A stretch of 64,000 nt of DNA, from the NCBI GenBank assembly GCA_003707065.3, contig PPXM03000008.1, positions 434,001 to 498,000 of the forward strand. The letters are read 5' to 3'. The stretch comes from Trigonopsis variabilis (taxonomy: Eukaryota > Ascomycota > Trigonopsidomycetes > Trigonopsidales > Trigonopsidaceae). This document shows positions 1 to 63,437 of this stretch, in pieces; within the stretch, counting starts at the first letter, position 1, and every line of letters begins with the position of its first letter. A program made the translations under genes and the position numbers. The notes below the pieces were generated by a model, which did not search any database, was not told the origin of the DNA, and saw only the letters and a list, made by a program, of their open reading frames with translations.

Positions 1-1653
1 GACACGTCTGATCCAGATAGCCACGCTCGCTTGCCGCCGGGGAGGAGTATGCGGGTGATTATCTCGAGCTTCTTCATCGTATTGTTGAGGGATTCAGTGC
101 ATCGAAACATGTAGACCCAGACTAATCTGGCCATTCCCGCGAGATAGGTTGTCCTCAGCGACCTGTCTTTTAACTTTGATTGGTTTGATTCGATAAGATT
201 GACCCAGTGCTTTGCAAAAAAGTCAGAGGGCGAGACGCAGATGGTGGTGCAGAGCAATGAGTACGCCGTCGTCCAGTATCGCTGTTTGCCGACCATGGTT
301 AAGCTTCGAGGGTAGATCAGTTCGATGGCACTGACCCACGTAGGATTGTTGACTTCTACCGTGACCCTTCCAGCGATGGGAAGAAGGAGGATGTTTAGGA
401 TCTCTGCGTAGGCTTGTTTGACCCGCTGGCCGTGAGACATGGCGAAGAATCGGCTCAGAGATTCCAGGAATTCGGCTGACTCCTCCAACGCGTTCATCGG
501 GTATACCTTTAGTCGAAGGTACTTCATGCCATGGATAAGCATCTGCACGTTTGGCTCTTTATCTCGAGGCACGTTCTTGGAGATTTTCTCGAGAGCCGCG
601 ATGAACTGGTCGCTCACGCTGGAAAAGCGGTTCTCAGACATGTATCCCAAAAGTCGCGCGAAGAGATTCCAGTTTGCGCTGCGAATGCGACTGCTGCTGA
701 TCACCTCAGGGTCTGCCAGTCGCAGCTGCTTAAACACCATCTCCTCGATCTTCTCTGTCAACTCTTCGTCCATGGACTCTGGAGGAGACTGCTTGATGAC
801 TTCGATCAGGACCCGGCACAGGAGGTATATGCTGATCAGAATCCGTCGATCGGCAATGACATATCGTGCTTTGGCAGAGGTCTCATGGGATCCGTCTGAA
901 GATGCAGAAGTCTGGCCATTCGAAGCCGAGCGGTCGCTGAGCTCCTTGGCTTTCATCTCGCTCTTGGTCTTTCTCCAAAACATCACAGAGTCGATCACCG
1001 GGGCGGGCTCCCGTTTGGCGATATGCCCCAGCGAGACCAAGATCCGATCAAACGAGGGGTCCACTCCTTCGCCTAGGATCTCTGTGATATCGATTTCTTT
1101 GTCGACTGGCAGTTTCAGACAGTAGTTGAGCTTTCTCTCTGCGTATCGGACAAACTGACGTTAAAACCATCCACAACAGCATTCTTACCTGAGTAAACAC
1201 TATATGCAATGCGTACTCTGCCGGGGTCTTGGGCTCAACCGAGTACGAAGGCTCGGCGGGCTGGTCTGAGGGCGAAGTCTTCATAGGCGAGGGGGTATGC
1301 GAAGAGAGCGAGAGGGTGTTTTGGCGGCGGGCTTTGTCGCTATAATCGATGGAATGAATGGGGGGTAAGAGCTTTTTGTGGGCCGAGGAGAAATACTCGT
1401 TCGACCGCCCGTCGAGGTTGATAGCAGGAGTGCCCGCCGCCGATTTGTCGAGTTTCAGCGGCTCTGGGATGTCCTTTGACCGGGAAGTCGATTTGTTGCG
1501 TCTGAAGATGTCGGTGCGGACTCCACTGAAAGTGTCCTGGCCGCCAGACGACGTCTTGGATCTATCCGCCGATTTCTGGGATCGCTGCGAGTTCCGACGG
1601 ATCAGAGACGACATGCTCACTCCATTGCCAGGGCTGTCGGTAATCGAAACCAT
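1..1653 (-). CDS. TAO3: Cell morphogenesis protein, Tao3/Pag1/Furry family, N-terminal part (cut by window edge)
   Basis: Furry-family scaffold of the RAM/MOR pathway, which acts with the NDR kinase Cbk1 in polarity and cell separation (family knowledge). Only the N-terminus is here; the gene runs off the left edge. Start chosen at the ATG of MVSITDSPGN (1653); about 100 Ser/Arg/Lys-rich residues follow, typical of the unstructured N-tail. The start of the Furry/MOR2-PAG1 N domain is then recognisable: EYALHIVFTQ joined to FVRYAERKLN. That join needs a 34-nt intron at 1155-1188 (donor GTAAGA, TTTAAC branch, acceptor ACGTCAG), phase 0. Downstream, the helical repeat region stays open to base 1 (e.g. 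WNLFARLLGYMSENRF). Neighbour NCP1 lies 3.1 kb away in the opposite direction. Family call rests on the N-domain motif and is fairly secure. Confidence 0.85.
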
Positions 1654-62284: not shown

Positions 62285-63437
62285 CTACTCGAGAAGGGCA
62301 GCCTTTTCTTCAAACAGCTTCTTGGCGTCGGTCCACACGCGCGCCGTGTCGCGCTCAGGCAGCTGGAGCAGCGACGGAATGAGCGCCAGGCTGAACGCCT
62401 CGGAGGCCTCGCGCGGGAGCAGCGACGGCAGGTGGTCGATCGAGCACACGCTCAGCGGCTTGGTGCCGGCAGGCACGGGCACCTCGACCGTGGGCTCCTT
62501 GAACGTGGTCGAGATGGAGTAGATGGGCACCGGGTTGTTTGGGTTGGACGTGTCGGCCGACACGTCGACGACCTCGGACAGCACGCGGTCCTGGCCGGCG
62601 CCGTCGATGGCGGCCTGGTCGACAAAGGGCGGGATCTTGGCCGAGAGGTAGATGCAGTTGATGAAGAGGTCGTGCTCGAGGATCTCGCTGAACGGGCCGC
62701 CCTTCTTGGTCTCGTTGATGTCCCACTTTGTGATGTTTGCGCTGGGCAGGCCCGCCTCGGTGAGCAGATCGCTGGCGCCCGTGCCGCAGCGGCCGAGCGC
62801 GCCAATGATGAGCGCAGTGGGCAGCTTGGCCGAGCCCGCTTTCTGCTGCGCGGCCGCGATCTGCTGCTTGATGTACGCGATCAGCTCGCCCTGGTTGGCG
62901 TAGGGCTCGAGCGACGGCAGCGGCGAGCCTGGGCGGAGGATCTTGTTGGCCCAGTCGAGCAGGCCCACCGCAGCGCCGGCAAAGCCCGCGTGGTACCCAA
63001 ACGCAGCCACCCGGCGCCCGTGCTCGTCCTGGAGAAACTCGAGGTCGTACAGCAGCCCGTGCCCGCGCACGAAGCGGCCCAGCACGTCCTGCCAGCCCGC
63101 CTGGTTCTTGTAGCAGTGGGCAAACATGATGTGGGTGTGTTTGAGCGGAAACGTGTCCTCGGGCAGCTCTTTCAAGCCAATGATGATGCGGTCCAGCGGC
63201 GCGTCGACCCACGAGCCCGCAGGCACAAGGGTGCACCCGGCACTAACGTTAGCGGCGCCAATTGGGGTCCTACTTTTCGTACTCAGAGTCGGCGAAAATG
63301 CTCTGCTCGGAGCGCTCGACAAAGACGTGGAAGCCCTTGTTGAGCAGCTGCCTGGCCGTCGCGGGCGTCAGCGCGGCCCGGTGCTCGAGAGGCTTGACCT
63401 CGGCGCGGAGATGGAGAGTGACCGGTTTGGCAGACAT
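62285..63437 (-). CDS. LYS1: Saccharopine dehydrogenase (NAD+, L-lysine-forming)
   Basis: Last step of the alpha-aminoadipate pathway of lysine synthesis. Exons 63437-63274 and 63242-62285, 373 aa, the same length as yeast Lys1. The 31-nt intron (63243-63273, GTAGGA...CTAACGTTAG, phase 2) joins FADSEYEN to [11 protein letters not shown]. Motifs: [16 protein letters not shown] at the start (substrate-binding Lys and His region), [22 protein letters not shown], the nucleotide-binding [13 protein letters not shown] and [16 protein letters not shown]. No PTS1 at the C-terminus (ends AALLE), unlike S. cerevisiae Lys1, so a cytosolic location is possible. The true ATG is [10 protein letters not shown]. 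Confidence 0.96.

Follow-up and report, generated by a model that had tools for sequence, protein, structure and literature searches.

Can pieces of DNA as short as 30 nt be genuine spliceosomal introns, and if so, what keeps them from becoming shorter still? The question is raised by the window, i.e., the whole 64,000-nt stretch analysed here (C8:434001-498000 of an 11.35-Mb genome in 15 contigs), in which a first-pass annotation had placed 26 introns of 30-44 nt and three longer ones. We confirmed the 26 short pieces as real in their intron anatomy. All end in AG, and 25 begin with GT, the remaining one (41280-41311) with GC. The annotation had described nearly all of them as ending in CTAAC or CTGAC, motifs that are present in 20 of the 26; the wider YTRAY is found in 25, the sole exception being 57785-57814, which carries CTTAT. 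The branch A lies 24-37 nt from the 5' splice site and 3-7 bases from the AG.

We searched the window using a gene finder that combines codon scores with matrices for donor, branch and acceptor that took the 26 listed introns as their seed, under a flat length prior of 20-500 nt; because of this seeding, motif counts from the finder are biased. It recovered 23 of the 26 at their exact coordinates, and it also returned introns of the three longer lengths that had been claimed: 124 nt in GLC3 (16538-16661, minus strand; one-residue junction gap in the PDB alignment), 291 nt in ATP2 (38492-38782, minus; the ATP2 alignment starts just past the intron) and 132 nt in a gene annotated as HMO1-like (49518-49649, minus). 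The other three short introns fit on closer reading. A 31-nt intron in a LYS1-like gene (by eye; 63243-63273, minus; 24 nt from 5' splice site to branch A) was found once the minus strand was read alone. The 33-nt intron of CTNNBL1 (41364-41396, minus) has an in-frame ATG 27 nt upstream and yields MSSIDGLFS/KLPPPKG, and the 32-nt intron of a RING-type gene (by eye; 51650-51681, minus) has an ATG 10 nt upstream. Five further finder calls fell in the window, namely 41364-41383, 51650-51901, 57935-57970, 62086-62180 and 63135-63252. The first two, a 20-nt alternative and a 252-nt intron sharing the listed acceptor, were not credited, being rival versions of the CTNNBL1 and RING-type introns just described; nor were the last two, which are products of a wrong gene merge. 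The finder's merges at 59103-63464 (plus) and, in another locus, L013 2949-7067 were judged wrong by eye.

Reading frames and homology bear on the same pieces. Retention would shift the frame in 16 of the 23 phased introns, and six of the seven in-frame ones contain a stop; the seventh, the 39-nt intron of GLC3 (16399-16437, minus), could be read through. In PDB alignments, six short-intron junctions are ungapped: this GLC3 intron (IGDF/NGWD) and the 35-nt intron of the same gene (16251-16285, minus; NSKIK/ISLK), the 32- and 31-nt introns of a PHO80-like cyclin (34050-34081, LTRFHS/RVAP, and 33829-33859, VASKG/LCDSF; both minus) and two 31-nt introns of mitochondrial ClpX (35960-35990, VDRA/ETGI, and 36074-36104, DVSGE/GVQQ; both plus). 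A seventh of the 26, the 33-nt intron of ClpX (36321-36353, plus; RLNKK/GRLGF), aligns within one residue. The PHO80-like and ClpX introns all have 24 nt between 5' splice site and branch A. Pfam matches span three additional junctions, in NOP53 (35 nt, 11997-12031, plus), a KEI1-like gene (34 nt, 13864-13897, plus) and an MRP-S28 domain gene (31 nt, 47537-47567, minus; 24 nt to the branch A).

The remaining finder-exact introns are of the same kind. A frameshift would follow retention of the 34-nt intron in a cell-morphogenesis MOR2-PAG1 gene (identified by Pfam; 1155-1188, minus), and a frameshift together with a stop characterizes the 38-nt intron near the 3' end of a mitochondrial RNA polymerase gene (by eye; 11448-11485, plus), the 41-nt intron of the KEI1-like gene (13717-13757, plus) and the 44-nt intron of a 6-phosphofructo-2-kinase, also named by eye (29746-29789, minus). 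Stops lie inside the 36-nt intron of the RNA polymerase gene (8916-8951, plus) and the 33-nt introns of a PPP4R2-like gene (43368-43400, plus), the RING-type gene (51546-51578, minus) and a copper-ATPase-like gene (by eye; 59393-59425, plus). The set further includes a 31-nt intron in a HEAT-repeat gene (32810-32840, minus; 24 nt to the branch A), a 44-nt intron in ATP2 (38805-38848, minus) and the 32-nt GC-AG intron of CTNNBL1 (41280-41311, minus).

One pair is ambiguous. In a PCI-domain gene that looks COP9-like by eye, introns of 31 nt (57821-57851, minus) and 30 nt (57785-57814, minus; the weakest branch, as noted above) were both recovered exactly by the finder and enclose a 6-nt exon, and a single 67-nt intron is also compatible with the frame. 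Since the PCI match, with the two residues of the small exon included, aligns 73 residues on 73 profile positions, the two-intron reading is weakly favoured.

Short introns had also been proposed to occur genome-wide, and we sampled the genome as the window plus 20 other 10-kb stretches. In the 200 kb outside the window, 93 finder calls measured 30-48 nt, 38 nt on average. Over the whole sample it returned 114 introns of 30-44 nt; for this bin, decoys whose donor or branch columns were reversed or complemented gave 17, 10, 26 and 7, and introns above 60 nt showed no clear excess over decoys. The seeding bias is weaker in two further tests. When the branch term was removed and the donor model retained, the finder made 64 calls of 28-48 nt, 47 of them coinciding with calls of the full model; YTRAY stood 2-9 nt before the AG in 48 (shuffles: mean 4.9, maximum 11) and was absent from the other 16. 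Homology without any motifs was provided by a genome search blind to splice motifs: in 30 pairs of neighbouring kinase matches, hand-picked from its 125 rows, the frame shifted in 21, and 13 of these gaps were insertions of 34-49 nt, the remaining eight being longer (55-194 nt). A count of motif pairs free of any gene model gave 13 pairs at 30-44 nt versus 2.9 expected in the window and 40 versus 9.1 in the other loci, with reversed-motif decoys flat. In addition, a 40-nt intron lies where two homology pieces of the 75-kDa complex I gene meet. Thus, in agreement with the first-pass claim, the short class dominates elsewhere in the sampled genome too. The 125 gene models contain 117 calls of 30-48 nt, i.e., 0.74 per kb over 159 kb of predicted coding sequence before subtraction of background; subtracting a background of 7-26 and scaling up suggests a genome total of roughly 4,000-5,000.

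Whether such introns are unusual depends on where the genome belongs, and the annotation's assignment to Saccharomycotina is favoured by some proteins and not by others. ATP2, uL10 and citrate synthase lean that way. The best PDB match of ATP2 is 5fl7 (909.6 bits), which we take to be Yarrowia, with identities of 91.4 (query-Yarrowia), 88.8 (query-Ogataea) and 90.6 (Yarrowia-Ogataea); for uL10, six presumed budding-yeast entries reach 461-468, versus 414 for 7olc, presumably Chaetomium; and citrate synthase matches 8gqz best (788 bits), no rival fungal class being recognised among the listed matches. Prp8, the 75-kDa complex I subunit and CCT epsilon do not. For Prp8, the best single stretch is with 9l5r (2,343 bits; the top row, 9r8v, is a sum of two overlapping stretches), followed by human (2,217), 3jb9, which we take to be S. 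pombe (2,193), and S. cerevisiae (1,992), and CCT epsilon scores 830 with animal chains versus 819 with 4v81. The 75-kDa subunit scores 1,090, 1,057 and 1,047 bits with 7zm7, 9iho and 6gcs, at identities of 67.6, 66.0 and 65.9, whereas 7zm7 and 6gcs share 70.6; the best tree found for this subunit (NUAM) lay outside 11 of the 15 possible topologies compared and separates two chains taken for budding yeasts.

We give about an even chance to the same introns belonging to an early-branching Saccharomycotina species, for instance an intron-rich one of the Trigonopsidales. Besides the three leaning proteins, the estimated total of short introns is near the number given for slow-evolving Trigonopsidales in the available text of PMC12322030, where the median species has 6,287 introns; against this, the 75-kDa identities give no sign that the query nests with the pair of chains presumed to be budding yeasts, and intron lengths for Trigonopsidales were not found in the accessible part of the printed record. 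A Taphrina- or Protomyces-like species of Taphrinomycotina, in whose kin the short-intron habit has already been published, is a tentative alternative. The nearest matches of the 75-kDa subunit and Prp8 are not budding yeasts, and U2AF35 is 66% identical to S. pombe U2AF23, but the ATP2 and uL10 matches speak against it. The accessible part of PMC4007546 gives Taphrina genomes of 12.0-15.7 Mb with 47.3-49.5% GC, 1.9-2.0 exons per gene and mean introns of 48-51 bp, which resemble the genome size, the 45.3% GC in 20 loci and the roughly one short call per gene model found here before subtraction of decoys; the same text reports no GC isochores, a further point against. Given these Taphrina lengths (PMC4007546) and the intron richness of Trigonopsidales (PMC12322030), as far as the consulted portions of the two papers go, the annotation's word 'unusual' hinges on the placement.

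Comparison with known systems, drawn from the accessible portions of the papers cited, shows both likenesses and differences. Taphrina is alike in having about one short intron per gene at a similar GC content and genome size, but differs in its longer means and lack of isochores, and the available text mentions no branch-distance limit (PMC4007546). Yarrowia lipolytica likewise has a branch near the AG and lacks a pyrimidine tract, but its median intron is 204 nt and its branch-AG gap is fixed at 2 nt, compared with about 37 nt and 3-9 nt here (PMC2483917); the 117 introns are spread over 3-9 nt, mostly 4-7, and are not anchored at a single distance as in Yarrowia. Trigonopsidales (PMC12322030) and Lipomyces starkeyi (1.1 introns per kb; PMC8476143) are alike as intron-rich budding yeasts. 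Pneumocystis jirovecii combines short introns (mean 61) with a compact ascomycete genome, although with ~5 introns per gene, longer than those here (PMC4007546, PMC4764891). Encephalitozoon cuniculi has a mean of 35.8 nt but very few introns, and Paramecium, with introns of ~25 nt, has no branch signature, which is clear here (PMC2483917).

What, then, sets the lower limit? The motif positions suggest that it falls not on intron length but on the distance from 5' splice site to branch, at 24 nt; the part of the open-licence literature on very short introns in yeasts that we consulted holds nothing on such a limit or on this genome. In motif-only counts over 349 kb, donor-to-A distances of 18-23 nt gave 23 pairs versus 28.2 expected and those of 12-17 nt gave 36 versus 28.2, and the count was 101 at 24-29 nt and 60 at 30-35 nt. 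The minimum distance is 24 at branch-AG spacings of 3, 4, 5 and 6, the minimum length being 30, 31, 32 and 33, respectively; as the minimum does not change while the gap does, the limit would lie on the donor-branch arm. At spacings of 7-9 the minima are 26-29, based on 26 introns. Of the introns of 20-60 nt called by the finder, every one has a donor-to-A distance of at least 24 nt except two, at 13 and 15 nt; the 13-nt call is the wrong version of 41364-41396, and the 15-nt call, like a 21-nt intron call in L036, was taken for an artefact. For comparison, Keiper and others estimated, in the accessible part of PMC6692369, that the unaltered human B complex needs ~52 nt, and the limit here is far below that. 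It is somewhat unlikely, in our estimation, that the 24-nt limit is a by-product of selection, mutation or branch scoring and not steric. In its favour, the edge is sharp inside the window (one pair at 23, nine at 24) and gradual outside it (2, 4, 9 and 15 pairs at 23, 24, 25 and 26 nt), and the limit is read from sequence; however, the limit also appears in the count free of gene models, and it stays at 24 as the branch-AG spacing varies from 3 to 6.

The right part of the window is a GC-rich block (26000-64000). From 26 kb to the window end GC is ~60% (2-kb bins 0.534-0.692), versus 45.3% in the 20 loci (0.423-0.493), and GC3 falls from 0.823 in the block (16 genes) through 0.647 on its left (eight genes) to 0.454 in 78 genes elsewhere. 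Exactly 24 nt between 5' splice site and branch A was found in 10 of the 19 introns of the block, whereas none of the eight on its left and one of the 93 in the other loci have this spacing (Fisher, 8e-9). The 19 include three listed introns added to the finder's set, and the boundary at 26 kb was set with the GC profile already known. Given this pile-up (10 of 19 versus 1 of 101 outside), the window is not representative and overstates the effect. Local GC did not predict donor-branch distance in the other loci (rho -0.004), so a simple GC effect is unsupported. Spot samples along C8 (400 bases each, 1,000 at 540 kb) gave GC of 0.438, 0.535 and 0.642 at 300, 420 and 510 kb, then 0.465, 0.472 and 0.487 at 525, 540 and 560 kb; these put the length of the block at perhaps 50-60 kb and suggest an end before C8:525 kb. 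High recombination with GC-biased conversion would fit as its origin, the intermediate GC3 of the left part being mildly in favour, and so would introgression. The block makes it possible to test, inside a single genome, what causes introns to become shorter. Immediately left of the GC step, 4.5 kb (21634-26166) at 43-48% GC hold no finder gene; tRNA-Lys (23660-23746, minus) and tRNA-Ala (24225-24298, plus) lie within it.

GT-AG ends, a donor complementary to U1 and a branch complementary to U2 would assign the introns to the U2-type (major) class, as would the putative snRNAs of the genome with their canonical pairing sites: U1 ATACTTACCTG (under the Rfam gathering score, 61.3 vs 69.5), U2 GTAGTA, U6 ACAGAGA and U5 GCCTTTTAC (slightly over, 44 vs 40). 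Slu7, Prp18, Prp8, U2AF35 and a U2AF65-like protein are all encoded, and with both genes present, loss of Slu7 or Prp18 was ruled out as a companion of the short branch-AG gap. The U2AF65-like protein (L036:1495-2964) reaches 281 bits, short of the 310 required; Pfam recognises its second RRM, the third region by itself yields 16 bits, under the cut-off, and its first RRM has no listed Pfam match at an E limit of 5, where search filters discard most weak matches. Compared with the human sequence, the positions of the RNA-contacting aromatics of RRM1 read V, L and L, a state that may be common in the group. According to a rule of Irimia and Roy, branches are reportedly weak in intron-rich, short-intron lineages; the genome as a breach of this rule was not upheld, GCTAAC, the commonest hexamer counted, accounting for 10 of the 64 branch-free calls, and CTRAY was found in 47.

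Taken together, these are very probably normal ascomycete introns of the U2-type spliceosomal class, mostly shrunk near a working minimum. Indels in the assembly or base calls, which would mimic short introns by breaking frames, could explain why 16 of the 23 are not multiples of three, but the pieces are bounded by splice motifs, their lengths peak at 30-44 nt and their removal restores conserved residues, a coincidence implausible already at seven junctions, and the chance of this is negligible. In the preferred reading, we infer from the layout that the introns are spliced in the cell: a GTRNGT-like donor would be held by U1 and then U6, a YTRAY branch, in most cases 24-35 nt further on, by U2, and the first AG, 3-9 nt past the branch A, would be used by the spliceosome. 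The lower limit would then be set by the room between 5' splice site and branch during assembly. A pyrimidine tract would find little space downstream of the branch, and the choice of 3' end should therefore rely on U2-branch pairing and contact of U2AF35 with the AG. As 24 nt could not span the extended geometry of the human B complex, a more compact complex would presumably be needed; the annotation's proposal of a spliceosome that tolerates minimal spacing stands to this extent, a very small spacing being implied if the introns are spliced.

Structural biology has yet to settle how closely a 5' splice site and a branch may be placed, and the genome is a useful natural test of the smallest intron that splicing can process. 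If its introns are spliced, it would combine a small ascomycete genome and canonical snRNAs with thousands of introns with spacings mostly of 24-35 nt, and could be used directly to solve a compact B complex and to test enabling factors such as Smu1/RED, SPF45 and the U2AF65 domains.

Two genes of the sampled sequence are of separate note. CTNNBL1 is retained at 39502-41423 (Pfam); it is spliceosome-associated and not known to occur in S. cerevisiae. Elsewhere, an open frame at L034:2818-3444, identified by eye, resembles a molybdenum-cofactor (MoaA-type) enzyme.
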